Shown here: piece by piece, positions 13,831 to 28,573 of the stretch
Position numbering within the stretch: the stretch's first letter is position 1
How the letters are laid out: every line of letters begins with the position of its first letter
Source of the DNA: Nostoc sp. TH1S01
GTDB lineage: Bacteria > Cyanobacteriota > Cyanobacteriia > Cyanobacteriales > Nostocaceae
Reading direction: 5' to 3'
Assembly: GCA_018993265.1 (NCBI GenBank)
Contig: JAGKSW010000052.1
Span: 1-64,000, forward strand
Length of the DNA stretch: 64,000 nucleotides
Made by a program: the position numbers and the translations under genes
Notes under the pieces: model-generated
Database searches by the model: none
Told to the model about the DNA's origin: nothing
Seen by the model: only the letters and a program-made list of their open reading frames with translations

Positions 13831-13860
13831 TTCAAATAATATTACTATATAGTTATAATA
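13831..13860 (+). promoter_or_regulatory. Promoter with shared ACT-N4-AGT operator (site A)
   Basis: The perfect 10-base palindrome ACTATATAGT (13844-13853) sits in an AT-rich dyad, TATTACTATATAGTTATA. A -10-like TATAAT (13854-13859) follows directly, and a -35-like TTCAAA (13831-13836) lies 17 bases before it. The site is about 40 bases upstream of the persulfide-dioxygenase-like gene. The same architecture recurs at 16226, 16894, 18281 and 25292. Confidence 0.7.
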
Positions 13861-13891
13861 TCAATTAATACGGCATCAGGATTTAGGCATA

Positions 13892-14584
13892 ATGTTATTC
13901 CGACAACTATTTGACGTAGAAACTAGTACATATACTTACTTAATTGCAGATTTAGGCACAAAAACGGCGATTTTGGTCGATCCGGTATTAGAACAAGTGG
14001 AGCGCGATCGCCAATTGCTGCAAGAATTAGGACTAACTCTCAAATATTGTTTAGAAACCCATATCCACGCCGATCATATTACTGGCACAGCGAAACTGCG
14101 AGAAATAACAGGTTGTTTGGGAATTGTGCCAGAGAATGCCCAAGCTGGATGTGCAGACAGATTTATAAAAGATGGCGAAGTTATAGAATTAGGGAGCGTA
14201 AAAGTAGAAGCGATCGCCACTCTCGGTCATACAGATAGCCATAATGCCTATTTAGTGAATGGTACTCACCTACTCACGGGAGACTCGCTGTTTATTCGTG
14301 GTTGTGGACGGACAGACTTTCAGAGTGGCAACGCTGGAATGATGTACGATGTCGTCACCCAAAAATTATTCACATTGCCCGACGAAACCCTAGTCTATCC
14401 TGGTCATGATTATCGCGGTCACGCAGTTTCTACCATTGGCGAAGAAAAACAATGGAACCCTCGGTTTGCAGGACGTAACCGCGAAGAATTTATTCAATTA
14501 ATGGCAAACCTAAATTTACCCAACCCGAAAAAAATCATGGAAGCCGTACCCGCCAACCAACGCTGCGGTAACGTGGCGGCGTAA
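13892..14584 (+). CDS. Persulfide dioxygenase-like (ETHE1-type) metallo-beta-lactamase-fold protein
   Basis: 230 residues. The metal motif THIHADH gives H57, H59, D61 and H62, with H113 (GHTDSH), D131 (LTGDSLF) and H172 (YPGHDY). In the ETHE1/PDO group only two His and one Asp of this set bind the single iron, and the segment RGCGRTDFQ is typical of that group. PDO oxidises glutathione persulfide to sulfite with O2. The next genes are a rhodanese and a TSUP transporter, a common PDO neighbourhood, and the gene is first behind operator site A. Glyoxalase-II-type hydrolase activity is the main alternative. Confidence 0.88.
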   Translation: MLFRQLFDVETSTYTYLIADLGTKTAILVDPVLEQVERDRQLLQELGLTLKYCLETHIHADHITGTAKLREITGCLGIVPENAQAGCADRFIKDGEVIELGSVKVEAIATLGHTDSHNAYLVNGTHLLTGDSLFIRGCGRTDFQSGNAGMMYDVVTQKLFTLPDETLVYPGHDYRGHAVSTIGEEKQWNPRFAGRNREEFIQLMANLNLPNPKKIMEAVPANQRCGNVAA

Positions 14585-14663
14585 TTAAGGGAAATAGAGG
14601 CTAGAGGTTAGGGACTAGAGGCTAGAGAAGATTTATAGAATCTCTGCGTGCTTTTCTTTGCGC

Positions 14664-14729
14664 CTTTGCGCCTACTCTTCTCCTGACGGAGACGCTACGC
14701 GAACGAGAAGCCGCTACCGCGTCTATGCG
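14664..14729. repeat. 66-bp dispersed repeat, exact inverted copy at 20147-20212
   Basis: It contains CGGAGACGCTACGCGAACG. The full 66 bases are the exact reverse complement of 20147-20212. It lies in the 239-base gap between the PDO and rhodanese genes. The family is widespread in Nostocales genomes. Confidence 0.92.
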
Positions 14730-14823
14730 TGAGATAAAAATCATCCCCGTCATCAGCAACACCAAAATTTTCAGATTTCACCGTATCTCTGCGTTTAAAA
14801 ATATTCCTCAAAGGTAAACAGTA

Positions 14824-15369
14824 ATGACCATTTCTCATACACGCAAATTACAAACCATTGATGCTCAAACTCTCCAACAGTTACTCAAACAACAAACTGT
14901 CACCCTTATAGATGTGCGTGAACCATCTGAATATGCTGGAGAACATATTCCCGATGCAACACTGATTTCCTTGTCCAAATTTGATCCGCGCAAAGTGCCG
15001 CAAACCCAAGACACTCAAGTAGTTCTCTACTGTCGTTCTGGGAATCGTTCAAAAATGGCAGCGCAAAAACTATTTGATGCTGGATTTACAGAAGTCACCC
15101 ATCTTGAAGGCGGTCTGGCCGCTTGGAAAGCCGCAGGTTATCCCACCAAAATTAACAAAAATGCTCCAATTAGTTTAATGCGGCAAGTGCAAATTGTTGC
15201 AGGTTCGTTAGTGTTTACAGGTACATTACTGGGTGCATTTGTTTCTCCTTGGTTCTTGATTCTGAGTGGGTTTGTCGGAGCCGGATTGATGTTTGCGGGA
15301 ATTACAGATACCTGCGCGTTAGCAATGCTACTTTCAAAACTGCCTTATAATCAACGGAGCAGTGTATGA
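14824..15369 (+). CDS. Rhodanese with C-terminal DUF2892 membrane domain
   Basis: 181 residues. The rhodanese domain (about 12-118) has LIDVREPSEYAGEHIPDA and the active-site loop C70-RSGNR. The C-terminal part (about 125-175) has two membrane helices (VQIVAGSLVFTGTLLGAF and WFLILSGFVGAGLMFAGI), ending with a DUF2892-like segment that contains DTCALAMLL. It should carry sulfane sulfur as a cysteine persulfide at the membrane. Its stop overlaps the TSUP transporter start by 4 bases, so the two are translationally coupled. With the upstream PDO it probably forms one transcription unit. Confidence 0.92.
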   Translation: MTISHTRKLQTIDAQTLQQLLKQQTVTLIDVREPSEYAGEHIPDATLISLSKFDPRKVPQTQDTQVVLYCRSGNRSKMAAQKLFDAGFTEVTHLEGGLAAWKAAGYPTKINKNAPISLMRQVQIVAGSLVFTGTLLGAFVSPWFLILSGFVGAGLMFAGITDTCALAMLLSKLPYNQRSSV

Positions 15370-16238
15370 CCTGGATAATTGGACATTTACTAGCTGCTTG
15401 TATTGGGTTGAGCTTGGGTTTGATTGGTGGCGGTGGTTCGGTATTGGCATTGCCAGTTTTAGTTTACGTCATGGGTATCCCACCAAAATCTGCGATCGCT
15501 ATGACTTTGGCGATCGTCGGTACTGTGAGTTTGTTAGGTATCATTCCTCACTGGCGAGCTAAAAACATTCAGTTGAAAACAGCATTAATTTTCGGTTCCG
15601 CCACTATGCTGGGAGCATTTGTGGGAGCAAAAGTTGCGTTGCTACCTTTTGTGACCGAAACTTTCCAAATGTTGCTGTTTGCCATCATGATGTTGTTGGC
15701 AGCAGTATTAATGATTCGCCGTAGTTCTCAAAAAACAGCCGCAGATGATCCGTTAGCTTTGTATCCCCCACCAGTCTGTAAATATTGCTGGTTGTGGTTA
15801 ATGACTGAAGGATTAGGAGTAGGGATACTCACTGGCTTGATTGGTGTTGGTGGTGGATTTGCGATTGTTCCAGCTTTAGTGCTTTTGGGAAAAGTACCCA
15901 TGAAAAAAGCAATTGGCACATCACTCATGATTATCGTGTTTAATTCAATTGCTGGCTTTTTGACCTATTGGGGACATATTTCTTTCAATTGGCAGTTGAT
16001 GTTATCTTTCATTGTGGCTGCTAGTGGCGGAACAATTTTTGGTGCATATTTGGCAGAATTTGTTCCTGCTCATAGACTGCAAAAAAGCTTTGGCTATTTT
16101 TTACTAGCAGTTGCAGCTTTGGTGCTGTTCCAAAATCGCCATTCTTTTCAATCAAGCAAAGTGTCAGAGTACACGCCTAATATTCGTGATCGACTTTATA
16201 TTTCTGGGAACAAGAATCATAATATCAATACTATATAG
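15366..16238 (+). CDS. TSUP/TauE-SafE family sulfur-compound transporter
   Basis: 290 residues, about eight membrane helices in two related halves. The repeated glycine motifs LSLGLIGGGGSVLALPVLVY and ILTGLIGVGGGFAIVPALVL are diagnostic of TSUP permeases. Members move sulfite, sulfoacetate, thiosulfate or sulfide across the inner membrane. Coupling to the rhodanese and PDO points to export of sulfite or thiosulfate made from persulfide; that is inference. Operator site B overlaps its last codons, so the arsR promoter starts inside this gene. Confidence 0.9.
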   Translation: MTWIIGHLLAACIGLSLGLIGGGGSVLALPVLVYVMGIPPKSAIAMTLAIVGTVSLLGIIPHWRAKNIQLKTALIFGSATMLGAFVGAKVALLPFVTETFQMLLFAIMMLLAAVLMIRRSSQKTAADDPLALYPPPVCKYCWLWLMTEGLGVGILTGLIGVGGGFAIVPALVLLGKVPMKKAIGTSLMIIVFNSIAGFLTYWGHISFNWQLMLSFIVAASGGTIFGAYLAEFVPAHRLQKSFGYFLLAVAALVLFQNRHSFQSSKVSEYTPNIRDRLYISGNKNHNINTI

Positions 16239-16247
16239 TAATATAGT
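16226..16247 (+). promoter_or_regulatory. Promoter with shared ACT-N4-AGT operator (site B)
   Basis: The same 10-base palindrome as site A, ACTATATAGT (16230-16239), is followed three bases later by -10-like TATAGT (16242-16247). It lies 26 bases before the arsR ATG, partly inside the end of the TSUP gene, and suggests autoregulation. The -35 is weak. Confidence 0.65.
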
Positions 16248-16265
16248 AAATAGATATATTTAGAC

Positions 16266-16616
16266 ATGAGTATGTTAGAAAATTCACCTGCTGCCCTTGG
16301 GCCGATTGCAGATTATTTTAAAGTACTTTCAGAAACTAGCAGGCTCCAAGTTTTGTGCAGTTTAAAATCGGGTAGCAAAAACGTCTCAGAAATTATCGAA
16401 GCTACCGGACTGGGACAAGCCAATGTGTCTAAACATTTAAAAATTTTGGCACAAGCAGGTATTGTTCAGCGCCAACCTCAAGGAGTAAGTATTTACTATG
16501 AGATTGTTGACCCTTTGATTTTTGAAATCTGCGAGTTGGTGTGTGATCGCCTCTCCATTCGTTTAGAACAACAAACAGCGCAGTTAAAACAACTAGAAGC
16601 TTTACGCAGCCGTTGA
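16266..16616 (+). CDS. ArsR-family regulator with SqrR/BigR-like cysteines
   Basis: 116 residues. The winged helix-turn-helix is clear: SETSRLQVLCSLKSG, then VSEIIEATGLGQANVSKHLKILAQAGIVQ and the wing RQPQGVSIYYEIV. Cysteines C31 (helix 2) and C89/C93 (C-terminal helix) fall about where the persulfide-sensing regulators SqrR and BigR carry their two reactive cysteines. The arsenic-sensor ELCVC motif is absent. The gene sits in the middle of sulfide and persulfide genes and has a candidate operator at its own promoter. Related ArsR-type repressors control sulfide operons in other bacteria, including the plasmid suo operon of Synechocystis. The sensing chemistry is inferred, not shown. Confidence 0.88.
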   Translation: MSMLENSPAALGPIADYFKVLSETSRLQVLCSLKSGSKNVSEIIEATGLGQANVSKHLKILAQAGIVQRQPQGVSIYYEIVDPLIFEICELVCDRLSIRLEQQTAQLKQLEALRSR

Positions 16617-16709
16617 AATCACTCTGGGAGTAGGGAGTGGGGAATAGGGAGTAGTCAATATTACTCAATCACATTAAGAGGTTATTTATAAAGTAAAAAT
16701 AAAATTCTC

Positions 16710-16824
16710 GTAGGGTGTGTTAGGCGCAAATTGTGAGCTAATTCATCACCAAAACTAGAGCCGAGCGCCTAACGCACCATTATAATCTGGCGGTGCGTTA
16801 GGCTGAAGCCATAACACACCCTAC
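16710..16824. repeat. Foldback repeat with GTAGGGTGTGTTA ends
   Basis: The left end GTAGGGTGTGTTAGGC (16710-16725) and right end TAACACACCCTAC (16812-16824) are inverted, with inner GCCTAACGCACC/GGTGCGTTAGGC arms. It is a small MITE-like or palindromic repeat of a class common in cyanobacteria and lies between arsR and psbA. Confidence 0.8.
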
Positions 16825-16855
16825 TTAAGATTTACTTCATAAATCGTCTCTAATG

Positions 16856-16892
16856 CAGCGCAGTTTAGTAACTAAACTGCGCTGATTTTTTG
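16856..16892 (+). terminator. Strong intrinsic terminator between arsR and psbA
   Basis: A perfect 14-base stem, CAGCGCAGTTTAGT (16856-16869) with ACTAAACTGCGCTG (16871-16884), is followed by ATTTTTTTG. It would stop transcripts from arsR and insulate the psbA promoter that starts directly after it. Confidence 0.85.
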
Positions 16893-16893
16893 C

Positions 16894-16922
16894 TTGATTA
16901 TATTACTAATAAGTTATATAAT
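16894..16922 (+). promoter_or_regulatory. psbA promoter with shared ACT-N4-AGT operator (site C)
   Basis: A -35 TTGATT (16894-16899) and -10 TATAAT (16917-16922) are separated by 17 bases. The spacer holds ATTACTAATAAGTTAT, with the ACT-AATA-AGT half-sites at 16905-16914 and flanking TATAT/ATATA arms. A repressor here would block polymerase directly. The leader is about 53 bases to the psbA ATG. Confidence 0.75.
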
Positions 16923-16981
16923 AAATAAATAGCAAGCAAGCCTTGTTAATTTTGCACCATTCCATTCACATCTATAGAAAA

Positions 16982-18064
16982 ATGACAACGCTTATAAATC
17001 AGCGCGGTAGCGCCAACTTATGGGAAAGATTCGCTAACTGGATCACCAGTACTGAAAATCGAATGTATGTTGGTTGGTTTGGAGTCATCCTGATTCCCAC
17101 AGCCTTAACTGCTGCGATCGTCTTTATCCTTGCATTTATAGCCGCGCCACCCGTTGATGTCGATGGTATCCGAGAACCTGTATCGGGTTCACTGTTGTAT
17201 GGCAATAACATTATTACTGCTACTGTAGTTCCCACTTCAGCCGCTATTGGCTTGCACTTATACCCCATTTGGGAAGCGGCTTCTCTAGATGAATGGCTGT
17301 ACAATGGCGGCCCTTATCAGATGATTGTACTGCACTTCTTACTAGCTATCTATGCCTATATGGGTAGGCAATGGGAATTGAGTTATCGCTTAGGAATGCG
17401 CCCTTGGATTCCTGTAGCTTTTTCTGCTCCCGTGGCAGCTGCAACAGCCGTATTGTTGATTTATCCCATTGGACAAGGTAGTTTTTCTGATGGCATGATG
17501 CTGGGGATTTCTGGAACTTTTAACTTCATGATTGTGTTTTCACCAGAACACAATATTCTTATGCACCCATTTCACATGATTGGTGTTGCAGGAGTATTTG
17601 GTGGCGCGTTGTTCTCAGCGATGCACGGTTCTTTAGTAACTTCCACATTGGTTCGGGAAACATCTGAAGCAGAATCAGCCAACATTGGTTATAAATTTGG
17701 TCAAGAAGGCGAAACCTACAACATCGTAGCTGCACATGGTTACTTTGGGCGCTTAATCTTTCAATATGCCAGCTTTAATAATTCCCGTTCCTTACATTTC
17801 TTTTTAGCGGCTTGGCCAGTAATTGGCATTTGGTTTGCTGCTTTAGGTGTCAGCACAATGTCGTTTAACTTGAATGGTTTTAACTTTAATAACTCGATTT
17901 TGGATCACCAAGGACGAACAATTAACACTTGGGCAGACCTTCTCAATAGAGCCAACCTGGGTATTGAAGTCATGCACGAGCGCAATGCTCACAATTTCCC
18001 TCTAGATTTAGCATCTGGTGAGCCTCAACCAATTGCACTTGCAGCGCCTGCAATTGCTAGTTAG
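16982..18064 (+). CDS. psbA: Photosystem II D1 protein, microaerobic (D1-prime) type
   Basis: 360 residues from ATG 16982 ([17 protein letters not shown], the usual D1 start); the extra upstream codons are not D1. Water-oxidation ligands D170, E189, H332, E333, H337, D342 and A344 are present, as are Y161, H190, H198, H215, S264 and H272, with a 16-residue C-terminal extension for processing. It has the three marks of low-oxygen D1-prime: A80 (G80A), L158 (F158L) and A286 (T286A). P144 and M173 match the low-oxygen PsbA2 of Thermosynechococcus. Unusual are S187-P188 where D1 normally has Q187-A188, next to E189/H190. It sits behind operator site C and is monocistronic, so it is probably induced with the sulfide genes. 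Confidence 0.96.
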
Positions 18065-18099
18065 TTATTACTTTTTTCTGGTGAGTCATGTTATTTTTG

Positions 18100-18126
18100 C
18101 ACCCTCTTTCTGAGGGTGTTTTTTTG
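18100..18126 (+). terminator. psbA intrinsic terminator
   Basis: Stem CACCCTC (18100-18106) and GAGGGTG (18112-18118) with a five-base loop, followed by eight T, 36 bases after the psbA stop. Confidence 0.9.
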
Positions 18127-18280
18127 TTGTTATCTGATAAAAAAAGTCTTGTTGAATCATCTGGCATTAATCAAAGACAAATTTTCCATCCAAACTGTCT
18201 ATAAGTTTGAGCCTCATTCAAACTTGTCGGTGTGTTGCTCTAAATATTAGAAAAAGTAACAAAATTATCCCAAATATCAC

Positions 18281-18308
18281 TTGTTATATTACTGTCTAGT
18301 TATATAAT
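18281..18308 (+). promoter_or_regulatory. Promoter of the sHdr-like operon with shared operator (site D)
   Basis: -35-like TTGTTA (18281-18286), spacer 16, -10 TATAAT (18303-18308). The spacer contains ACTGTCTAGT (18291-18300) inside the dyad TTATATTACT/AGTTATATAA. The architecture is identical to site C, about 55 bases before hdrC1. Confidence 0.75.
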
Positions 18309-18363
18309 AGATATATAATTATTAAAGGTGTCATTCAGCCAATAGAATGACGGAGCTTTATTT

Positions 18364-19071
18364 ATGGGCAAATTATTTAACGAGCTGAAAAAAGATATTT
18401 TGTATCAGCATGGGATGAATGCCTGTTTAAATTGTGGTGTGTGTACTGCCGTATGTCCAGCAGCAGAGTTTAGTGATTACTCTCCTAGAGAAGTGATGAA
18501 TCTCGTGCAGTCGGAAGATGACGAACAGATTGAGGAGTTACTCAAGTCAGACAAAATTTGGTTTTGTGGACAGTGTTTTTCTTGTAAAACTCGGTGTCCT
18601 AGAGGTAACAGTACCGCCTCGGTAATTCTTGCTTTACGTCGCCTGTCAATTAGACATGGTTACTTTGCTGAGTCCGAAAAAGGTAGACAACAATTAATTG
18701 CGAAACGGGTATTTGGGGAAAATGTTCTCAAACGCGGTTACACCTTGCTGGGAGAAAATATCGCACCTTCCCACTTCCCGGAACTCGGTGAAAACTGGGA
18801 ATACTATTACGAACATATGCAAGAAATGCGGCAATGGTGGGATGTACCGATGAATCTGGAAAATAGTCCAGGTTCGCATCGAGTGATTCCAGAAAAAGAT
18901 ATGGAAGAAGTACGAGCAATTTATCAAACCACTGGCGCAGTCTATTTAATGGATGCAGTCGAACAAGGTATGGAGAAGAAACTAGGCAGCAAGACTGAAG
19001 TAGAGAAATATTGGCAAACCTGGCTAGAAACTGGCGATAGCAGAAACTACGAACTTAAATCCACTAAATAG
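18364..19071 (+). CDS. sHdrC1-like iron-sulfur protein (heterodisulfide-reductase-like subunit C)
   Basis: 235 residues. Two ferredoxin-type [4Fe-4S] motifs lie at CLNCGVCTAVCP (C21, C24, C27, C31) and CGQCFSCKTRCP (C68, C71, C74, C78). The C-terminal ~140 residues form a helical extension. It is the electron-transfer subunit of an Hdr-like complex. It is the first gene behind operator site D, with GGAG about 8 bases before the ATG, and is followed after 11 bases by the B1-like gene. The five-gene order C1-B1-A-C2-B2 matches the bacterial sHdr sulfur-oxidising complex. A generic SdhB/GlpC-type reductase is less likely because of the neighbours. Confidence 0.85.
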   Translation: MGKLFNELKKDILYQHGMNACLNCGVCTAVCPAAEFSDYSPREVMNLVQSEDDEQIEELLKSDKIWFCGQCFSCKTRCPRGNSTASVILALRRLSIRHGYFAESEKGRQQLIAKRVFGENVLKRGYTLLGENIAPSHFPELGENWEYYYEHMQEMRQWWDVPMNLENSPGSHRVIPEKDMEEVRAIYQTTGAVYLMDAVEQGMEKKLGSKTEVEKYWQTWLETGDSRNYELKSTK

Positions 19072-19082
19072 GGTGAAAAATA

Positions 19083-20129
19083 ATGAAGCTGGCAGGGAAA
19101 AATCAAGCTTGGGAAAGACACCAAAAAACAGTTCCCACTGTAGACGATGAAGGTGGCAAGTTGTGGGGATGCTTTCGGAGTTGTTTTCTGCAAAGTGCAG
19201 CCCCTTATACAGAGGGTATTGCTTATAAGATTTTGAAAAACGAATTAGGTATGGAACTGCGGGAAGCACCCGGTCATACTTCCTGTGGTGCTATTGGCTA
19301 TCACGGGGATGTATCCAACCTAGAAACACAAATGGTAATGGCAGCGAGAAATTTTTCTGTTGCTCATCATGACCTGGGTGTAGATAATCTCTTCTCTTTT
19401 TGCGTTACCTCCTTTGCTAACTACACGGAAATGATTCAACTTTGGGAAGAAGAACCAGAGTTGAGAGAGTATACACAAAAGACCTTGAAAGAAACCACCG
19501 GACGGGATTTTTGGATTCCTCACGTTTCTGGCGGTAGACCTTCTGTGGTTCATGCTTCGGATATTTTCTTCGCAAATCGGCATAAATTAGCTGCCAAAGC
19601 CAAGTATAGTCTCAAGGGTATCAAAGCTACTGACCACGTTGGATGTCACTACAGTAAGATTTTCCCAGAGGAAGCGATCGGTGGAACTGAGTTTCCGCAG
19701 GTGCTAGTTGGGTTATTAGAAGCTTTTGGTGCAGAGATTGTTGACTATCCGGAACGCAGACATTGCTGTGGAATGGGTTTTCGGCAGTGTGCTTTTCCAG
19801 AAAATAGAGATTACACCGCTAGTAGTGTTTATAAGAAATTGGTGAGTCTGAAGGAGGCGCATCCAGACTGTAATTTAGTCCTGACTAACTGTCCAGGGTG
19901 TACGGTGTTTCTGGATGCGGAACAAGGAACGATTAAAGAGGTGTTAGAAGAAGAGTTTAATGTCAGTATCCTGGACTATGCTCAATTGACTGGTTTGTTG
20001 TTGGGTTATGACCCATTCAAGGATTGTGGGTTGAATGCTAAGGCTGTGCCGATTGAGCCTTTGTTGGACAAGATTGGTATTCCTTATGACAAGAGTAAAA
20101 CGGCAGAGGAGCGTAGGAGGCCGTTTTAG
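19083..20129 (+). CDS. sHdrB1-like CCG-domain protein
   Basis: 348 residues with two CCG-type halves. The second is intact: C188 (HVGCHYSK), C228-C229 (RRHCCGMGF), and C270 and C273 (NCPGC), enough for one noncubane [4Fe-4S] cluster of the HdrB kind. The first half is degenerate: C30 and C34 near the start, C68 in SCGA where CCG is expected, and C107-V-T-S where CxxC is expected. HdrB subunits carry the heterodisulfide or persulfide chemistry. It is tightly linked to hdrC1. The 117-base gap to the A subunit gene contains a 66-bp dispersed repeat. Confidence 0.85.
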   Translation: MKLAGKNQAWERHQKTVPTVDDEGGKLWGCFRSCFLQSAAPYTEGIAYKILKNELGMELREAPGHTSCGAIGYHGDVSNLETQMVMAARNFSVAHHDLGVDNLFSFCVTSFANYTEMIQLWEEEPELREYTQKTLKETTGRDFWIPHVSGGRPSVVHASDIFFANRHKLAAKAKYSLKGIKATDHVGCHYSKIFPEEAIGGTEFPQVLVGLLEAFGAEIVDYPERRHCCGMGFRQCAFPENRDYTASSVYKKLVSLKEAHPDCNLVLTNCPGCTVFLDAEQGTIKEVLEEEFNVSILDYAQLTGLLLGYDPFKDCGLNAKAVPIEPLLDKIGIPYDKSKTAEERRRPF

Positions 20130-20146
20130 GCTTTGGATTTGTTTCG

Positions 20147-20212
20147 CGCATAGACGCGGTAGCGGCTTCTCGTTCGCGTAGCGTCTCCGTCAGGAGAAGA
20201 GTAGGCGCAAAG
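20147..20212. repeat. 66-bp dispersed repeat inside the sHdr-like operon
   Basis: Exact reverse complement of 14664-14729. It interrupts the operon between hdrB1 and hdrA and would be transcribed as part of the mRNA, where it can form a hairpin (GCGTAGCGTCTCCGT and TAGACGCGGTAGC segments). Confidence 0.92.
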
Positions 20213-20246
20213 ACGCAGAGAGTAGGAGAGTTTAGAGGTGAAAGTC

Positions 20247-21311
20247 ATGGGTAAGAATGTGGTAGTGATTGGGGGCGGTGTTGCTGGGATGGCTGCGGCG
20301 GGGAGGTTACAGGATTTTGGGTATGAGGTGGTGTTAATTGAGAAGGCGGCTGCGATTGGCGGTCATGTTAAGAATTGGTATAAGGTGTTTCCCGATTTTA
20401 CGGATGCTACTGAGATTATTAGTCAGTTGAAGGGGAATTTGAATAGGACGAGAATTTTAACTGATTGTACGGTAACTCTTATTGCTGGGTCTGCACCTAA
20501 TTTTCAATTGACTACTTCGACGGGTGAAATTATCGATGCAGCTGCAATTTTGGTGGCGACGGGATTTAAGCCGTTTGATGCGGCTTTGAAGGAGGAATAT
20601 GGTTATGGTATCTACGATAATTCTGTGACTTCCATTGAATTGGATGCGATGTTGAAACATCATACGGTGAAGACTGTTGCTGGTAAAACACCTAAGAAGG
20701 TGGCGATGATTCACTGTGTCGGTTCTAGAGATGAGAAAGTTAATAATAATTACTGTTCGAGGGTCTGTTGTACGAACACGATTAAGGTGGCAATTGAAGT
20801 TAAACAGCAGATTCCTGATTGTGAAATTTATTGTCTCTACATGGATATTCGGGTGTTCGGTCGTGGTTATGAAGAACTGTACCGCACATCTCAGGAAGAT
20901 TATGGGATTCAGTTTATTCGCGGTCGGTTGTCGGAGGCGAATGAGAAAACTGATGGCAGTTTATTGTTAAGACTAGAAGATACACTCACAGCCAGACCGA
21001 TGCGGTTGACTGTTGATATGTTGGTGTTAATGGTGGGGATGTGCGCCAATACGGAATTGTCGGATGTGGCAGGGTTGAAAGTCGGTGCAGACCGTTTTTA
21101 TGTGACTGCAAATATGCAATACTCCAACAATTCTTCACCCAGACAAGGCATTTTTCTGGCGGGGACAGCTACAGGGCCGAAAGCAATTGTGGAATCAATT
21201 ACTGATGGACGTTCGGCTGCGGCGGAAATTGCGGCTTTTTTGGCTAGTCAGCCAGTAGGTTCTCAAAATGGTTACTCGCCTGTGACGGAAATTGCAACTT
21301 CACTTCATTAG
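20247..21311 (+). CDS. sHdrA-like FAD flavoprotein
   Basis: 354 residues from ATG 20247, with AGAGG six bases upstream; a GTG three codons earlier is possible. The FAD-binding Rossmann motif is VVVIGGGVAGMAAAGRL, followed by VVLIEKAAAIGGHV, the ATG-type motif AAILVATGFKPFD, and near the C-terminus GIFLAGTATGPKAIVESITDG. The central segment AMIHCVGSRD (C160) with NYCSRVCC (C173, C177, C178) is the iron-sulfur site characteristic of HdrA-like proteins. Its ~350 residues fit the short bacterial sHdrA rather than the long methanogen HdrA. It would pass electrons between the two CB halves encoded on either side. Confidence 0.87.
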   Translation: MGKNVVVIGGGVAGMAAAGRLQDFGYEVVLIEKAAAIGGHVKNWYKVFPDFTDATEIISQLKGNLNRTRILTDCTVTLIAGSAPNFQLTTSTGEIIDAAAILVATGFKPFDAALKEEYGYGIYDNSVTSIELDAMLKHHTVKTVAGKTPKKVAMIHCVGSRDEKVNNNYCSRVCCTNTIKVAIEVKQQIPDCEIYCLYMDIRVFGRGYEELYRTSQEDYGIQFIRGRLSEANEKTDGSLLLRLEDTLTARPMRLTVDMLVLMVGMCANTELSDVAGLKVGADRFYVTANMQYSNNSSPRQGIFLAGTATGPKAIVESITDGRSAAAEIAAFLASQPVGSQNGYSPVTEIATSLH

Positions 21312-21322
21312 GGTCTAAAAAA

Positions 21323-21904
21323 ATGGCAGCAAAAAAATGTTTCTTTGGGTTGAAGGTCGATCGCCAGGTGGATGGCGACAAGATGAACCGCGAGTTTCTC
21401 AAGAAAGTGCAGGCGGAGGGTGGTGATTACGCCGCGATCGCCAGTTGTATGCAATGTGGTACTTGTAGCGGTGGCTGTACCAATGCTGACCGGATGGATA
21501 TTTTACCGCGCAGCTTGGTATTGATGATTCAAAGAGGTGATTGGGAAAAGGTGCTGCAAAGTCAGGCTTTGTGGTTATGTACTTCTTGTCAGATTTGTAC
21601 AACCAGATGTCCCCGTGGGGTGCGTCCAGCAGATGTGATTGAAGCTGTGAAGGCGATCGCTATTCGAGAAGGCATCAAAAATGATTCTGTCAGGTTCAAT
21701 CAGATATTTGTGGAATTAATCAAAAAACGCGGCATTCTCTTTGAACCGGAATTAATGCAAGAGTATGGCGGTATGGCTGCCGTTCTGGAACAAGCTCAAT
21801 TAGGCATCAAATTAGCTCTGCGGGGCAAAATGTCGCCATTTCCGGCTCACATCAAAGACCCTAAACAATTTAGCGCAGCATTAGCAAAGGCAGAGAAACA
21901 ATGA
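21323..21904 (+). CDS. sHdrC2-like iron-sulfur protein
   Basis: 193 residues. Two [4Fe-4S] motifs: CMQCGTCSGGC (C42, C45, C48, C52, followed by Thr instead of the usual Pro) and CTSCQICTTRCP (C86, C89, C92, C96). A helical C-terminal region follows. It starts 11 bases after hdrA, and its stop overlaps the B2-like start by 4 bases (ATGA), so C2 and B2 are translationally coupled. In canonical sHdr operons a small hypothetical gene lies between A and C2; it is absent here. Confidence 0.86.
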   Translation: MAAKKCFFGLKVDRQVDGDKMNREFLKKVQAEGGDYAAIASCMQCGTCSGGCTNADRMDILPRSLVLMIQRGDWEKVLQSQALWLCTSCQICTTRCPRGVRPADVIEAVKAIAIREGIKNDSVRFNQIFVELIKKRGILFEPELMQEYGGMAAVLEQAQLGIKLALRGKMSPFPAHIKDPKQFSAALAKAEKQ

Positions 21905-22770
21905 AATTTTCTTATTATCCGGGATGTAGCCTGCATACAACTGCCAGAGAGTTTGATATCTCCACTAAAGTCGTAATGCAAGAACTAGGAATTGAACTTG
22001 AGGATTTACATGATTGGTCTTGTTGTGGGGGTTCTGTAGCTGGTGCTGTTTCTCACGATGTGGGTATGGCTTTGGCGGCGAGAAATGTGGCTTTGGCACA
22101 GCAACAAAATCTCGACTTGTTAGCATCTTGTTCTGGTTGTTACAACAAATCAGCGAGAGCAGCACAAGCATTAGAAAATCAGACAGAACGAGATAAAATC
22201 ACCGCAATTTTGTCAGAGATGGGAGTATCTATTACTGATTCCAAGATTAAAGTTAGAAATGTGGTGGATGTTTTACTCAATGATGTTGATATCTCCACCC
22301 ATATCAAAAAACCCCTCAAAGGTTTGAAGGTAGCTTGTTATTATGGTTGTCTCCTCACTAGACCAGCAGACATTACTGGATGGGACTCTCCAGTGTTCCC
22401 AATGTCAATGGATAAACTAGCTCAAAAGTGTGGCGCGGAGGTCGTTGATTTCCGCTCCAAAACCAAATGTTGCGGCGGTTCTATGGTCATCCCTAAAGAA
22501 GATGTCGCCTTGGAACTGACAAAGCAACTATTAGATGAGGCTAAATCTCTTGAGGCTGATTGTATAGTTTTGGCTTGTCCTTTGTGTGCTACAAACTTAG
22601 AAATTAAACAACCAGATATTGAGAAGAAATATAATGTTAACTATCGGCTACCGATTATCTACATTACAGAATTAATTGGACTGGCTTGTGGGATTGCACC
22701 GAGAAAAATAGGCTTGCATAAGCACATAATTTCTACTAATTCAGTTTTACAGAGATTGAATGTATTTTAG
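21901..22770 (+). CDS. sHdrB2-like CCG-domain protein
   Basis: 289 residues with two complete CCG motifs: C9, C41-C42, C77 and C80 (YYPGCSL, SCCGGS, ASCSGC), then C146, C190-C191, C226 and C229 (ACYYGC, TKCCGG, ACPLC). Each can hold a noncubane [4Fe-4S] cluster. In Hdr enzymes such clusters bind and split disulfides; in sHdr they are thought to handle protein-bound persulfide. It is the last gene of the five-gene Hdr-like set. A secreted rhodanese follows after 109 bases. Confidence 0.88.
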   Translation: MKFSYYPGCSLHTTAREFDISTKVVMQELGIELEDLHDWSCCGGSVAGAVSHDVGMALAARNVALAQQQNLDLLASCSGCYNKSARAAQALENQTERDKITAILSEMGVSITDSKIKVRNVVDVLLNDVDISTHIKKPLKGLKVACYYGCLLTRPADITGWDSPVFPMSMDKLAQKCGAEVVDFRSKTKCCGGSMVIPKEDVALELTKQLLDEAKSLEADCIVLACPLCATNLEIKQPDIEKKYNVNYRLPIIYITELIGLACGIAPRKIGLHKHIISTNSVLQRLNVF

Positions 22771-22879
22771 TAATTATGAGCAATAAATTTTGAAATGGAA
22801 ATATCAATTGATTCAGGCAGTAACATGGTGAACAAATATGTCTTTACTGATAATCGAAAACAATAGCCAGATATAGACA

Positions 22880-23401
22880 ATGAAATATCAAAAATTCCTG
22901 GCAAATTTACTAGCAATATGGATATTTTTAGGTATTCTTTTTTGTGTCACATATAACTTGCCAGCCTTAGCATTGACTCAAACCGCATCTAACCCAATTA
23001 CAAAGGTCAAAACAGTGTTAAATTCAGACTCAGACATAAAAAAAGCAGTTGATCATTATCTGAATTCCATTCCCAAAGGCTATTACACTGTGGGTAATGT
23101 AGAAGAATTGCAAAGGTTACTCAGGGAAGATAATACACTTTTGATTGATGTTAGAGAACCTACCGAGTATGCAGATGGACATATTGGTAATGCGATTAAT
23201 ATTCCTTTGCCAAAACTGACACAAAACCTCGATAAAATTCCCTCAAATCAGTCTGTGGTGATTTACTGTACTTCTGGTTATCGTTCAGCAATGGCAGTGA
23301 TGAGTTTACGCCTTTTGGGTTATGAAAATGTGGGTGGTTTTCCCCCAAGTATCAATGGTTGGAAAGCCGCAGGTCAGAAGTTAAATAGTGTTGCCTCATA
23401 A
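22880..23401 (+). CDS. Exported or membrane-anchored rhodanese
   Basis: 173 residues. The hydrophobic N-terminus (about 7-32, LANLLAIWIFLGILFCVTYN) with a possible cleavage after ALA indicates export to the periplasm or lumen, or membrane anchoring. The single rhodanese domain has LLIDVREPTEYADGHIGNA and the active loop C130-TSGYR. It could receive sulfane sulfur made by SQR outside the cytoplasm. It lies 109 bases after the Hdr-like operon on the same strand with no terminator visible between, so it is probably co-expressed. It is distinct from the rhodanese-DUF2892 protein at 14824. Confidence 0.9.
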   Translation: MKYQKFLANLLAIWIFLGILFCVTYNLPALALTQTASNPITKVKTVLNSDSDIKKAVDHYLNSIPKGYYTVGNVEELQRLLREDNTLLIDVREPTEYADGHIGNAINIPLPKLTQNLDKIPSNQSVVIYCTSGYRSAMAVMSLRLLGYENVGGFPPSINGWKAAGQKLNSVAS

Positions 23402-23464
23402 TTGAGCAAAATTAATGTATTATATGTAATACGCATCTAATCTAAAATGATGCATGAAAATTAT

Positions 23465-23525
23465 CTTGTGGGATGGGCTTTTAGCCTGTCTGGTGCGGGC
23501 AAGATGCCCACACCACCACAAAACT
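23465..23525. repeat. Dispersed foldback repeat
   Basis: Its first 27 bases match 11848-11874 with one mismatch. Here it continues GTGCGGGCAAGATGCCCACAC, a short hairpin. It lies between the convergent rhodanese (+) and Rieske (-) genes. Confidence 0.7.
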
Positions 23526-23558
23526 ATATTTTTGCACTACTTTAGGCTTGCCAAACCA

Positions 23559-24095
23559 CTACAACCACCAGGGTTTTTCTCCGGTGCGAGGATCTGTTTC
23601 TGTCCAGGGTGATATCAAAATGCTGTTCTCGATGACAGCAACTTGGACAATCTTCAGTGGGAGAGGTGCAGGGCCACGAACCACTGTTCCATCAGGTGCA
23701 TAGAGAGAACCATGACAGGGACATTGGAATTGTTGCTCAACAGGATTCCAGGGGAAAGTACAGCCAAGATGAGTACAGTTATCAACAATTCCGATCGCAT
23801 CAAGGTTGTGGTCTTGTGTAACTGTTAAGTAAGTTGGTTCACCACGCAAACCTGCAACCAACGCACGGGTTCCCTGCGGTTCTACCAGAATTTGCGAAGC
23901 CGGAATTGGATTCCCCAGAATATCTTTAGCAATGATGGCTCCCCCTGCGCTTGTTGATTCTGCGGGAGGAATGAAGAATTTACCAACAGTATAAAGTGCG
24001 GAACCAGCCGTAGCTGCAACAGTGGCTCCTGTCAAAAAATTCAGGAGTTGTCGTCGTGATAAGGATGGATTTTCAATGGGAAAACTATTGTTCAT
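23559..24095 (-). CDS. petC: Rieske iron-sulfur protein, cytochrome b6f PetC-type
   Basis: 178 residues from ATG 24095, preceded by AGGAAA; the longer open frame to 24257 runs through a low-complexity CTTTTGCC repeat. The N-terminal twin-arginine-like SRRQLLNFLTGATVAATAGS and membrane helix match PetC. The cluster ligands are C107-T-H109-LGC112 and C125-P-C127-H128. The tail GEKPWWL matches PetC. The length equals a normal PetC. Cyanobacteria often carry several petC copies. This one shares the locus with SQR and a low-oxygen D1 and probably lies in the unit of the flavoprotein gene upstream, so it may be a sulfide or low-oxygen b6f isoform. That last point is inference. Confidence 0.93.
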   Translation of the reverse strand: MNNSFPIENPSLSRRQLLNFLTGATVAATAGSALYTVGKFFIPPAESTSAGGAIIAKDILGNPIPASQILVEPQGTRALVAGLRGEPTYLTVTQDHNLDAIGIVDNCTHLGCTFPWNPVEQQFQCPCHGSLYAPDGTVVRGPAPLPLKIVQVAVIENSILISPWTETDPRTGEKPWWL

Positions 24096-24249
24096 GATTA
24101 ATTTCCTGAGTTTATTTGAGATAAATTGACAGTACAAATCGGCGAAAATAAACAGACTATCTGGAATTGCTAAAAGGCTTGTGGTATCACTATTCTTTCT
24201 TTTTCCTTTTGCCTTTTTCCTTTTGACTTTTGCCTTTTGCGTAGCGGTA

Positions 24250-25248
24250 CTAGACATTTACTGTCAAATGTTCTTCCCAGCGACGCGCACCACGAGAGTG
24301 ACGAATATCGCGCCAGATTTGTGTAGCAGCTAAAGCACCATCACTAGCAGCAACTACAACCTGATTTAATCCAACTTTCAAATCACCAATAGCAAAAATA
24401 CGTGGGTGAGAAGTTCGACACATCCTATCTGTGACTAAGTTATTTCCTTTTAACTCTAAGTTTATTCCTTGCAGATAAGTGTTGTGATAATGAGAACCCA
24501 TTGAAATCAAACCAGTTTCTAACTCAATCACCGAACCATCAACTAGTTCTACTCCAGTCATCTGATGATTGTGTCCCAAGAATTGCTGAATCTGTGTTTC
24601 TACTAGAGGATAACCATGTTCTTGAAGTTTTTGACGCATATTAGGACTGACTGCAAAGCTTCCATGTGTAAACACAGTTATATAAGGTGTGAACCAACTT
24701 AAGTTGAATACCATTTCTTCAATACTGGCTTCACTACCTGCAAAGAAACCGCATTTTTTATCTGTCATTTCGTAGCCATCACAGACCATACAGACATGCA
24801 GATTATAGCCAGCATAATCATAAACATTTCGCATTTCTGCTAAGGGTGGCAAGTTGTCAATAATTCCACTCGCTGCAATCAAATATCGAGAGCGAAACAC
24901 AGCAGAAATGCTATTGACACGGCCAATTTTGACTTTGACAGCAAAGGTTTCTCCTTCATCTATGACTTCTTCAACATACGCATTGAGAAAATCACCATCA
25001 ACAGACGCATAATGTTCTTTTCCTTGCTGCAACAGAACTTTTCCGGGAGTGTTTGGTGGTAAACCCAGATAGTTATGTAGTTCTTGCATCCAGAAAGAGC
25101 GAGCTTTACCTTTGTCGATAATTAAACTAGAAAGCCGAAAGCGTTGTAGATAAATACCCGCAGACAGTCCCCCTGCACCACCGCCGACAATAATCACATC
25201 ATAGATTTGGTGAAGGCGCTCATTGAGATTTTTCTTGGAAAGTTCCAT
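24250..25248 (-). CDS. Thioredoxin-reductase-like FAD protein with CxxC
   Basis: 332 residues. FAD-binding VIIVGGGAGGLSAGIYL at the N-terminus; the redox pair C153-M-V-C156 followed by DGYE, comparable to the CATCDG of thioredoxin reductase; and the C-terminal FAD motif IFAIGDLKVGLNQVVVAASDG. The NADPH-binding Gly motif is replaced by GFFAGSEASIEE, so pyridine-nucleotide use is uncertain. It may reduce a disulfide or persulfide partner. It is the first gene on the minus side of the palindromic promoter at 25292, about 43 bases away, followed by the Rieske gene after 154 bases, and is divergent from sqr. Confidence 0.86.
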   Translation of the reverse strand: MELSKKNLNERLHQIYDVIIVGGGAGGLSAGIYLQRFRLSSLIIDKGKARSFWMQELHNYLGLPPNTPGKVLLQQGKEHYASVDGDFLNAYVEEVIDEGETFAVKVKIGRVNSISAVFRSRYLIAASGIIDNLPPLAEMRNVYDYAGYNLHVCMVCDGYEMTDKKCGFFAGSEASIEEMVFNLSWFTPYITVFTHGSFAVSPNMRQKLQEHGYPLVETQIQQFLGHNHQMTGVELVDGSVIELETGLISMGSHYHNTYLQGINLELKGNNLVTDRMCRTSHPRIFAIGDLKVGLNQVVVAASDGALAATQIWRDIRHSRGARRWEEHLTVNV

Positions 25249-25291
25249 TTTTGTTGATTGATTTTAAAATAGTAACACAAGTCTTTATAAT

Positions 25292-25327
25292 TATTGACTA
25301 TATTACTAATTAGTAGTATAGTCAATA
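25292..25327. promoter_or_regulatory. Palindromic bidirectional promoter and operator (site E)
   Basis: A 36-base palindrome with a single mismatched pair. Its core is ACTAATTAGT (25305-25314), the ACT-N4-AGT motif of sites A-D. On the plus strand it gives -35 TTGACT (25294-25299), spacer 17 and -10 TATAGT (25317-25322). By symmetry it reads the same way on the minus strand. It would drive sqr in one direction and the flavoprotein and Rieske genes in the other under one repressor. A partial second site, GCTAATTAGTTA, lies at 25433-25444. Confidence 0.8.
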
Positions 25328-25545
25328 GTATGAGTAGTATCGGTCAATTATCTTTTTTAGAGTTAGCTAGAACTAAATTTCTATTAAGGAAACATTTTGA
25401 GCATTTAATTGTATAGATAATATAATTACATTGCTAATTAGTTAACTAAACTAACGAAACTCAAGTGTGATTAACAGGATAAGCAAGCTAGTGTGAATAT
25501 TTATCTTTTGCTCCTGTGCCAGATGTTAAAAATGGGGTATTAAAC

Positions 25546-26856
25546 ATGGTTCACGTCGTCGTAATCGGTGCAGGGATTGGTGGTTTACCAACAGCTTATG
25601 AACTAAGGCATTTATTACCAAAATGCGATCGCATTACGTTGATTTCTGACAACCCCAAATTTACCTTTATTCCCTCCCTACCTTGGGTAGCCTTAGATTT
25701 AACCCCTTTAGAAAAGGTTCAACTAGATATAGAAAGTTTGCTTTGGGGGCGGGGAATTGCATGGCTAGAAGGAAAAGTTACAAATCTTGATCCCTATACC
25801 CAAACCCTGAGTGTCGCGGGAAAAACCATCGATTACGACTACGCCGTGATTGCCACAGGCGCATCCTTAGCACTGGATAGTATACCGGGATTAGGCCCAG
25901 AACAAGGTTATACCCAATCTGTATGTAATCCTCATCACGCCTTATTAGCGCAGCAGGAATGGCGAAAATTTATCGAGAATCCGGGGCCTTTGGTAGTCGG
26001 TGCAGTACCAGGAGCAAGCTGTTTTGGCCCTTTATATGAGTTTGCTTTACTAGCAGATTATGTTTTGCGAAGAAGGGGTTTGCGTCACAAAGTACCAATT
26101 ACAGTAGTTACACCAGAACCCTATGCGGGTCATTTGGGCATTGGAGGAATGACAAATTCTGCTGAGTATGTGACTCAAATGCTACAGCAACAAAATATTG
26201 AATATTTGGAAAATGCGGCAGTTGTCGAGATTAGTCCACAAAAGATTACCTTAGCAGATGGTCGGATTTTACCTTTTCAATATTCAATGCTCATCCCACC
26301 TTTCCACGGCGCAACATTTTTGCGGTCAACACCAGGATTAACTGACCAAAAAGGATTTGTACCCACTTTACCAACCTACCAACATCCAAAGTTTCCTTCA
26401 ATATATAGTTTGGGTGTGGTAGTGCAGTTAACTCCACCAGAAAAGACACCCATACCAATTGGTGTACCCAAAACCGGACAAATGACCGAAGCAATGGGAA
26501 TGGCTGTGGCGCATAACATTGCGAGGGAATTGGGAGTAATTCAAGCCTCCCCAGTTACACCAACTCTAGAAGCGATTTGTATGGCAGATTTTGGCGATCG
26601 CGGGATCATTTTTGTGGCTGCACCAGTATTACCTGATTCTGTGACTGGAAAACGCAGGATTGCTGTAGCTCAACGGGGTCGTTGGGTAAGTTGGCTGAAA
26701 CTGGCTTTTGAGAAATTTTTCTTAACTAAAATGCGTTTGGGGATGTCTATACCTTGGTTTGAGCGTTGGGGTTTGCGAATTTTAGGTTTATCTTTAGTGG
26801 AACCGCTTTCAGATTCGCCAATGTTGAGTGTAGAAGATATTGCCCATAGTAAGTAG
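25546..26856 (+). CDS. sqr: Sulfide:quinone reductase
   Basis: 436 residues from ATG 25546; an in-frame GTG at 25516 is possible. It oxidises sulfide to sulfane sulfur and reduces plastoquinone at the membrane. FAD motifs are VVVIGAGIGGLPTAYEL, AVIATGASLAL and SLGVVVQLTPPEKTPIPIG. The three catalytic cysteines of Acidithiobacillus-type SQR are present: C127 (QSVCNPHH), C159 (GASCFGPLYEFA) and C345 (AICMADFGDRG). The C-terminal amphipathic segment (WVSWLKLAFEKFFLTKMRLG) fits membrane association. It lies behind the bidirectional operator, with a leader of roughly 215 bases. The NDH-2 family is the main relative, but the cysteines exclude it. Confidence 0.94.
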   Translation: MVHVVVIGAGIGGLPTAYELRHLLPKCDRITLISDNPKFTFIPSLPWVALDLTPLEKVQLDIESLLWGRGIAWLEGKVTNLDPYTQTLSVAGKTIDYDYAVIATGASLALDSIPGLGPEQGYTQSVCNPHHALLAQQEWRKFIENPGPLVVGAVPGASCFGPLYEFALLADYVLRRRGLRHKVPITVVTPEPYAGHLGIGGMTNSAEYVTQMLQQQNIEYLENAAVVEISPQKITLADGRILPFQYSMLIPPFHGATFLRSTPGLTDQKGFVPTLPTYQHPKFPSIYSLGVVVQLTPPEKTPIPIGVPKTGQMTEAMGMAVAHNIARELGVIQASPVTPTLEAICMADFGDRGIIFVAAPVLPDSVTGKRRIAVAQRGRWVSWLKLAFEKFFLTKMRLGMSIPWFERWGLRILGLSLVEPLSDSPMLSVEDIAHSK

Positions 26857-27241: not shown

Positions 27242-28573
27242 CTACGACTCTTCTAATACTTGCTGATTTGGCTCATAGAGTGGCTCTTGGCAACCAATAC
27301 CCATAACTAATAATCCAGGCCAATATAAATAAACTAATATTTCTAAATTCTCACCAAAAGTATACAAAAAAAGAATCATCACAATACTCAAGCCAACTTT
27401 GGCTGTCGGACATTTGCTATCCATTGACTTAATTAATAAATAGACAAAAGTTAAAGCCATTGGAATAGCTAAGGCGATAAATCCCACAATTCCTTTGACA
27501 AACAATAAACCTGCCCAAGTATGATGTGAACCGATAGGCATGTGTTCAACAAGGTGCGGGCCATCTTCTACTACACCATGTCCCCAAATTGGGGCTTCAG
27601 CTTTCCACCGATATATAGCAATTCGTTTCAAGGCCATACGTACCCTTGTAGAGCCTGCCCTTGCTGCTTTGAAACTTTCCCAAAAATTATTCACAGCCAT
27701 AATTATCGATGGTGAGAAAATCCCACCTAAATAACTCAAAAATCCCAGCCCAATTAATATTTTTGGTCGATTCATTCCAGAGAAAACTGTTGTAAATAAA
27801 GGAATTAATACTATACAAACCTGTGCTAGGCGCGACTTACAAACAAAGCACATTAATACAGCACCAATTAATCCAAACCAGCGCCATTTTTTATCTTTTT
27901 CTTGCAAGGCCAGCATAAAATAAACATTGCCGACAAAACCCAAGGCTGGCCCCCAAGGGGTAAATAGTCGCCAACGTAAATCGCCTGTGCTACCGTCAAT
28001 TTCGTAAAGAGGCACATCAAAAAATTCATTACCTGGCCCGCCGACAGCTTTGAGTGGGGAGACGTACAGAATTTGAGGTAGATGTAACGAAGGAGTTAAT
28101 AGTAAAAAAGGGGTAATTAATAAAGTATGAAACCCAACAATACAAACTGCGCGATATATAATTTGAGGGCGGATTTTTAAGCATCCAGCTAAGGGATAAA
28201 GCGCCAGTGCTGCCCAACCTTTTGCCCAACCAATAGAAGATTTAATAATTAAACCAGTTGGCAAATTATAGTCTAGATGTCCAGCTATTAATGATATTTC
28301 CATCAGGAGCATCCCAATTACCCAAACCCAGAGAATCCAAGAAATCGAGATTTTTTCTGCGGGTGGTGTGTCTGGGGTTTGAGCCAGAATTTTAATGAGG
28401 AGAAATAATAACAACAGCCAACCCATGAGAGCGCCAACAACATATAGCCCTCCCACTACCCAGATAAAATAGGTGTTAGCGATCGCCCACCAAACTACTT
28501 TTTCTGGTATGTTCTGTGGTTGGATATCATCTGGATGAATCTGTTTTTTGGGTTTTTTGCTCATTTTAACCAA
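27242..28573 (-). CDS. O-antigen ligase/Wzy-like membrane polymerase
   Basis: 443 residues with about ten to twelve membrane helices, and a large loop holding AIYRWKAEAPIWGHGVVEDG and HMPIGSHHTWAGLLFVKGIVG, like the Wzy_C/O-antigen ligase signature (H-x-H in the periplasmic loop). It would polymerise or ligate undecaprenyl-linked polysaccharide. It overlaps the Wzz-like gene upstream by 8 bases and is the last gene of a three-gene unit on the minus strand (Wza-like, Wzz-like, Wzy-like). Confidence 0.85.
   Translation of the reverse strand: MVKMSKKPKKQIHPDDIQPQNIPEKVVWWAIANTYFIWVVGGLYVVGALMGWLLLLFLLIKILAQTPDTPPAEKISISWILWVWVIGMLLMEISLIAGHLDYNLPTGLIIKSSIGWAKGWAALALYPLAGCLKIRPQIIYRAVCIVGFHTLLITPFLLLTPSLHLPQILYVSPLKAVGGPGNEFFDVPLYEIDGSTGDLRWRLFTPWGPALGFVGNVYFMLALQEKDKKWRWFGLIGAVLMCFVCKSRLAQVCIVLIPLFTTVFSGMNRPKILIGLGFLSYLGGIFSPSIIMAVNNFWESFKAARAGSTRVRMALKRIAIYRWKAEAPIWGHGVVEDGPHLVEHMPIGSHHTWAGLLFVKGIVGFIALAIPMALTFVYLLIKSMDSKCPTAKVGLSIVMILFLYTFGENLEILVYLYWPGLLVMGIGCQEPLYEPNQQVLEES

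Follow-up and report, generated by a model that had tools for sequence, protein, structure and literature searches.

An LbpA-free Hdr-like gene set in a probable sulfide-oxidation regulon of Nostoc sp. TH1S01 and other cyanobacteria

The window analyzed here is a stretch of 64,000 nucleotides from Nostoc sp. TH1S01 (GCA_018993265.1), positions 1-64,000 of contig JAGKSW010000052.1. The contig is 132 kb long and belongs to a draft assembly of 247 contigs of a 7.65-Mb genome. An island at 13831-26856 carries five genes similar to heterodisulfide reductase (Hdr), together with genes for sulfide oxidation and isoforms of D1 and of the Rieske protein PetC. Genes were assigned from open frames, family profile searches and sequence matches to solved (PDB) chains, and all fourteen were present. 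The features, including four copies of a putative operator, are the following (PDO, persulfide dioxygenase; SQR, sulfide:quinone oxidoreductase; TM, transmembrane):

13840-13857, + strand: operator copy 1, before PDO; exact TATTACTNNNNAGTWRTA
13892-14584, + strand: persulfide dioxygenase, ETHE1/PDO type; 277 bits to 4ysb, 223 to the ETHE1 chain 4chl
14824-15369, + strand: rhodanese with YgaP-like membrane anchor (TM); PF00581, PF11127
15366-16238, + strand: likely sulfur-anion transporter of the TauE/SafE (TSUP) type; PF01925, 189 bits
16266-16616, + strand: ArsR-family repressor that presumably regulates the island; PF01022; best PDB chains 13ct/6o8k, 42 bits
16901-16918, + strand: operator copy 2, before psbA; exact match
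16979-18064, + strand: psbA, D1' (group 3, low-oxygen type) by residue alignment
18287-18304, + strand: operator copy 3, 59 bp before hdrC1; exact match
18364-19071, + strand: HdrC1, with all 8 Cys for two predicted [4Fe-4S] clusters; family search, cysteine table
19083-20129, + strand: HdrB1, C-terminal CCG intact, N-terminal CCG without 2 of 5 Cys (S67, S110); alignment
20244-21311, + strand: HdrA, short form that has the FAD part but no ferredoxin domains; 208 bits to 6tjr, 326/355 residues
21323-21904, + strand: HdrC2, with all 8 Cys for two predicted [4Fe-4S] clusters; family search, cysteine table
21901-22770, + strand: HdrB2, with all 10 Cys of its two CCG motifs; 165 bits to chain 8rvu_b, a methanogen HdrB
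22880-23401, + strand: second rhodanese, its N-terminus resembling a signal segment (by eye); PF00581
23559-24095, - strand: PetC (Rieske) isoform typical of hdr loci; NF045928, 292 bits, above cut-off
24250-25248, - strand: DDOR-type flavin disulfide oxidoreductase; 428 bits to Slr0600, 5jri
25301-25318, + strand: operator copy 4, between the divergent DDOR and sqr genes; exact match
25546-26856, + strand: SQR, type I; 332 bits to the SQR chain 3hyv

An earlier note, made from the letters alone, had listed PDO-like, rhodanese, TSUP, ArsR, D1, five Hdr-like, second rhodanese, Rieske and SQR genes within 13 kb, and these families were all confirmed. Its label for the frame at 24250-25248, a thioredoxin-reductase-like protein, was dropped since the Slr0600-type chain 5jri matched at 428 bits; this type is known as DDOR, and published papers contain both names. 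The metallo-beta-lactamase at 13892-14584 was typed as ETHE1/PDO by the solved-chain search. Nine bacterial SQR chains matched the SQR frame with 319-332 bits (3hyv 332, 3sz0 323), which makes it a type I SQR related to solved bacterial enzymes. For HdrA, an alternative GTG start is possible at 20238.

The palindrome TATTACTNNNNAGTWRTA is found exactly at 13840, 16901, 18287 and 25301, in the promoters of PDO, D1, HdrC1 and SQR. Judged by eye, each copy sits between two promoter-like elements spaced 16-17 bases apart, TTGnnn (TTCAAA for PDO) and TATAAT or TATAGT. With up to two mismatches, the window showed 12 matches, several of them being both strands of one palindrome, against a mean of 2.05 and a largest value of 9 in 100 shuffles, so that the single operator-like motif claimed earlier stands. 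The whole genome contained five exact matches, four inside the island and one more on contig C57; with up to one mismatch there were 19 matches per strand compared with 6 for a backward control. Inspection by eye of frame starts near five of the sites outside the island revealed no recognizable sulfur-oxidation gene. Close to one of the sites (L138) there is a peroxiredoxin-like frame, also by eye.

Recurrence of the hdr set was studied with one genome per species, giving 22 cyanobacterial loci among the best 80 of 139. Since exact peptide words were required, the scan may miss relatives. Hosts include Phormidium pseudopriestleyi (PMC8002359) and, going by its name, the 'SulCav' Prochloron, both from sulfidic or low-oxygen settings, as well as Anabaena, Calothrix, Richelia and Microseira. 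SQR was encoded within 10 kb in 15 of the 22 loci; 13 of them have type II and 4 have type I, including 2 with both types. The type II SQR of locus L011 matched human SQR with 389 bits, and the other 12 were 57-76% identical to the L011 protein. Adjacent type I and type II genes next to hdr were seen at L019:3600-6604 and L026:4726-7658. Further neighbors, in loci of which some are cut by contig ends, were PetC (11), PDO (9), TSUP (4), D1 (3), DDOR (3, plus a piece of 37 residues in a fourth locus, L023) and ArsR (2). In addition, hdrC1B1AC2B2-sqr is contiguous on a plasmid of Picosynechococcus PCC 7003 and looks like one operon.

Of 388 drawn cyanobacterial genomes, 11 encoded HdrA (E up to 1e-30). 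SQR was present as type I in 108, as type II in 67 and as either type in 148. All 11 Hdr-positive genomes had SQR, compared with 137 of the 377 others (one-sided Fisher p = 2e-5, an optimistic value because the genomes are related). The co-occurrence suggested for checking was thus found for SQR, and D1 accompanied hdr in 3 of the 22 loci, but the set itself did not prove to be sHdr by membership, as described below.

For the relatives, a generalized palindrome TATNACTNNNNAGTNATA was used, which was fixed only after they had been inspected. The hdrC1 scan covered 23 loci, namely the window, 21 of the 22 scanned loci (L008, which starts inside HdrB1, was left out) and PCC 7003. In 15 of them a site with up to two mismatches lay no more than 300 bp from hdrC1, and in 9 there was one with up to one mismatch; sets shuffled by an own routine that held the dinucleotide make-up close averaged 0.9 with a maximum of 3 (n = 100). 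Counting the window copies, sites with up to one mismatch preceded PDO in 5/9 cases, type II SQR in 3/13, type I SQR in 1/5, D1 in 2/4, DDOR in 1/4, the YgaP-TM gene in 1/8, PetC in 1/12, and HdrC1 and HdrC2 jointly in 8/43. None was found before DUF2214 (0/5). In the controls, such sites preceded 6 of 304 other frames and none of 68 HdrA, HdrB1 and HdrB2 frames. One of those six frames is in the window (28566-29963), and at least one more (L021) shares the pdo-sqr intergenic region. An operator arising by chance was ruled out by the shuffled sets, the genome counts and the control frames. The shared operator argues for one likely regulon combining sulfide oxidation with the D1 and PetC isoforms, and in this respect the earlier reading of the island stands, with recurrence added, while its sHdr identity is not supported as stated.

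The ArsR protein is the presumed binder of these operators. Its best solved relatives, 13ct and 6o8k, are presumably SqrR, and its first Cys aligns with them, while its C-terminal Cys pair meets non-Cys columns there. Against the NCBIfam BigR model, it scored 42.8 bits (cut-off 155).

D1 residues were numbered on a reference D1 sequence; the L002 row was unused and L021 is a fragment. The window D1 has A80, L158 and A286, which we take to be the D1' (group 3) signature, and the D1 of L010 is of the same type. By these residues it is a low-oxygen D1'. Since all six Mn ligands are kept in the alignment (D170, E189, H332, E333, D342, A344), it should still support water oxidation. Group 3 psbA is described as the microaerobic form in the part of PMC5061849 available. 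Another psbA copy of the same genome (L005, G000:C224:770-1618) has lost Mn ligands (D189, A333, V342, S344) and resembles the group 2 'rogue' D1. A D1 without the ligands (Q170, N332, A333, L342) also lies beside hdr and petC in the cyanobacterial metagenome-assembled genome (MAG) CG_2015-22 (L022:4986-6020). The window PetC keeps CTHLGC and CPCH. In a comparison set of hdr-linked PetC and its own second full-length copy, it was 65-77% identical to 11 other hdr-linked PetC versus 49% to that second copy, and it looks like a dedicated isoform. The regulon would tie a D1/Rieske isoform swap to sulfur sensing.

The order hdrC1-B1-A-C2-B2 in one cluster is an sHdr-like layout. HdrA (355 aa) comprises the FAD part alone, and its residues 4-329 match 6tjr, which we take to be sHdrA of Hyphomicrobium denitrificans. 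Unlike HdrA of methanogen HdrABC, it showed no ferredoxin domains in family and chain searches. The eight cluster Cys were kept in 23/23 cyanobacterial rows for HdrC1 and in 22/22 for HdrC2, as were the ten CCG Cys of HdrB2 (22/22), the CCG positions being read off the alignment to methanogen HdrB. HdrB1 retained its C-terminal CCG, and Ser replaced two of the five N-terminal cysteines in all 22 rows with letters there; four Altiarchaeales/Bacteroidales rows had Ser or Thr at the same places. These counts leave out rows where a paralogue had been taken (L008 for HdrC1; L009 and L011 for HdrC2 and HdrB2) and, for HdrC2 and HdrB2, the non-cyanobacterial rows (all four, or three).

All five genes reached at least 85% length in 19 of 23 other loci. 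The incomplete sets were L008, starting in HdrB1, and L009, ending in HdrC2 (both at contig ends), L026, with HdrB1 in two pieces, and L011, where no C2-B2 was found within 10 kb downstream in sequence free of N. In L016 the hdr cluster is followed, some 7 kb downstream, by a second HdrB1 copy (88%; L016:19239-20279), with an operator-like site at 19139.

The earlier note had taken the set for sHdr. The sHdr-LbpA system of Hyphomicrobium denitrificans and others shares the gene order, the short FAD-only HdrA and ArsR-type control; it differs in having the lipoate-binding protein LbpA, a hyp gene between hdrA and hdrC2, and DsrE. LbpA is called inevitably associated with sHdr genes in the available text of PMC6067878. 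The 11 Hdr-positive genomes each contained one strong glycine-cleavage H protein (GCV_H) match and no second full-length copy; one extra marginal piece was seen in each of two genomes (G225 and G087; 22.1 and 21.6 bits, 35-39 positions). In 19 further Hdr-positive assemblies, some of them incomplete MAGs, there was one GCV_H in 17 and none in 2. Overall, 28/30 had one strong GCV_H and 0/30 a second full-length one. In the Nostoc genome, to which the glycine-cleavage check was limited, the only GCV_H adjoins gcvT. The fetched hdr loci contained no LbpA-like frame, with a single weak match in L028 (E = 0.89). The hyp gene was likewise absent, the hdrA-hdrC2 gap being 11 bp in the window and 5-205 bp in 22 of 23 other loci, those showing both genes. 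DsrE gave no match in the Nostoc genome, the only one searched, where rhodaneses are present.

The HdrA tree contained 57 rows (16 cyanobacterial) picked from 107 frames and was rooted at the midpoint. The cyanobacterial rows grouped with Altiarchaeales and Bacteroidales and were split at 99/96 from the sole sHdrA row (6tjr), which has a long branch (1.55); together with sHdrA they formed one branch at 100/98. A single sHdrA was included because searches for further references yielded no more: among plasmids only PCC 7003 was recovered, and in 395 genomes of the phylum of genome G388 there was none at E 1e-70, in a search without positive control. Plain sHdr identity was rejected on membership, LbpA and hyp being missing. 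As far as the sequences go, sHdr fits the layout and not the membership, an indication that the arrangement of hdr genes by itself is no marker for the LbpA-dependent pathway. The C1-B1-A sets of Altiarchaeales (L029) and Bacteroidales (L030-L032) have HdrA 43-59% identical to that of the island, and their HdrB1 lacks the same two N-terminal CCG Cys (4/4). Unlike the island, with its soluble HdrC2-HdrB2, they continue after C1-B1-A with a membrane-like frame of 609-640 aa that contains CCG motifs.

Published work is cited here from the available parts of each paper. The vicinity of sqr, low-oxygen psbA and arsR is already known: Grim and Dick (2016, PMC5061849) reported sqr near group 2/3 psbA and arsR, and in the text available heterodisulfide, hdr and rieske were not mentioned and no operator was described. 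Searches of the open-licence literature turned up no account of an Hdr complex as part of a sulfide regulon in cyanobacteria, nor of all these parts together. Type I SQR and PDO also act in sulfide oxidation in PCC 7002 (PMC7042703), with O2-dependent PDO and, in that excerpt, no Hdr; there, psbA, petC, pdo, rhod and tauE transcripts increased with polysulfide (PMC12466478). In P. pseudopriestleyi (locus L021), hdrA2/B2/C2 were noted and read as possibly serving electron bifurcation, with no sulfide link in the passages seen (PMC8002359). A 2026 mat study that looked for Hdr-like genes reported SQR only for cyanobacterial MAGs (PMC13384644, in part), and a 2025 paper stated that 'Sodalimona willei' holds no shdr genes (PMC12423496, in part). 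The complete five-gene hdr set occurs in Phormidium willei (L013), which may be that organism.

These results are best explained by an LbpA-free Hdr complex handling SQR-derived persulfide within an ArsR-controlled sulfide/polysulfide regulon, most likely oxidizing it to sulfite without O2; we put its chances at about even. SQR would oxidize sulfide, feed plastoquinone and leave persulfide or polysulfide. Sulfide or polysulfide would release ArsR from the promoter-embedded operators, and the derepressed cell would make D1' and the special PetC, remodeling the electron chain at low oxygen. With O2, PDO, rhodanese and TSUP would turn persulfide into sulfite or thiosulfate. Without it, the C1-B1-A-C2-B2 complex would oxidize the same sulfane sulfur to sulfite, as an sHdr variant without lipoate-binding protein, passing electrons to plastoquinone or NAD(P).

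This explanation is favored because of the four exact operators and the hdrC1 sites in relatives, the SQR in all 11 Hdr-positive genomes and within 10 kb in 15 of 22 loci, the contiguous genes of PCC 7003 and both CCG sites kept in HdrB2. It is also favored by the polysulfide response of PCC 7002, where rhodanese and tauE respond as well (PMC12466478). In addition, three hdr loci (L013, L015 and L017; Phormidium willei, SL48-SHIP and OSCR) are assigned to the same GTDB genus as Sodalinema gerasimenkoae (PMC9420970), and S. stali CCY9619 makes thiosulfate, not sulfur (PMC12694226). Light-driven cyanobacterial oxidation of sulfide to thiosulfate probably proceeds via sulfite, and the sulfite-forming enzyme was called unidentified in a 2017 review (PMC5972617, in part). 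The more specific proposal that C1-B1-A-C2-B2 is the oxygen-independent sulfite-forming enzyme of cyanobacterial sulfide photosynthesis, LbpA-free and co-induced with D1' and the PetC isoform by one sulfur-sensing repressor, is tentative, and we lean against it. If true, cells with SQR could gain six electrons per sulfide instead of two. The regulon offers a candidate sulfite-forming enzyme, a predicted operator and, in PCC 7003 with hdr and sqr side by side, a tractable setting.

Several observations weigh against the Hdr oxidation route. SQR (148/388) is much commoner than Hdr (11/388), therefore Hdr is dispensable for SQR-based sulfide use, and SQR with PDO alone yields sulfite and thiosulfate with O2 (PMC7042703). 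With neither LbpA nor, in the Nostoc genome, DsrE, the route has no recognized sulfur carrier. HdrA is closest to complexes of presumed anaerobes, which need not oxidize sulfur. No hdrC1 site with up to two mismatches was found in 8 of 23 loci, and none with up to one mismatch before TSUP (0/5), the rhodanese cluster (0/14) or SulP (0/6), although TSUP and rhodanese may be internal to operons. ArsR occurs in 2 of 22 hdr loci, and its second sensor Cys is outside the matching column of its best solved relative. Polysulfide lowered sqr expression in PCC 7002 (PMC12466478). The hdr loci are linked to thiosulfate-forming cyanobacteria by genus only, and two Sodalinema species were reported without sqr (PMC12694226).

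The main competing explanation, which we consider rather unlikely, is the reductive direction. With NAD(P)H, ferredoxin or quinol as electron source, Hdr would form sulfide from polysulfide or sulfur stores under anoxia in the dark, or else recycle persulfides. Induction by sulfane sulfur would follow because sulfane sulfur would be the Hdr substrate. The nearest solved relative of HdrB2 is methanogen HdrB, which reduces disulfides. The nearest Altiarchaeales and Bacteroidales relatives agree with this direction as well, since their CCG-containing membrane-like frame (by eye) would suit a quinone-linked complex of anaerobes, and the Bacteroidales loci hold a short HdrC-like frame before it. 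However, the soluble C2-B2 module of cyanobacteria is unlike theirs, and Hdr is paired here with SQR and PDO, both enzymes of the oxidative side.

Hdr chemistry is disulfide chemistry, and the complex could with DDOR act as a thiol redox valve during sulfide stress. It would then connect plastoquinone by electron transfer with disulfides and persulfides, either of low molecular weight or in proteins, with neither sulfite nor sulfide as main product. DDOR in the island and at three other loci fits this idea, but the linkage was limited to 3 of 22 loci (with the 37-residue piece in L023), and we consider the idea quite improbable. Finally, the set could be a canonical sHdr in which the H protein of glycine cleavage, or some other lipoyl protein, takes the place of LbpA. 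This would agree with the subunit layout, the short HdrA and the one strong GCV_H in 28/30 genomes, but is very improbable given the missing dedicated LbpA and hyp, the Nostoc GCV_H adjoining gcvT and the position of HdrA apart from sHdrA.

Apart from the cyanobacterial loci, a region of an Acidithiobacillus ferrooxidans plasmid (L100:3150-4490) combines HdrB-like and GcvH-like proteins, hemerythrins and hcp. Within the island, a dispersed-repeat-like stretch (CGCTACGCGAACG and flanks) is found at 14585-14823, before the first rhodanese, and in opposite orientation at 20130-20243, in the hdrB1-hdrA gap.

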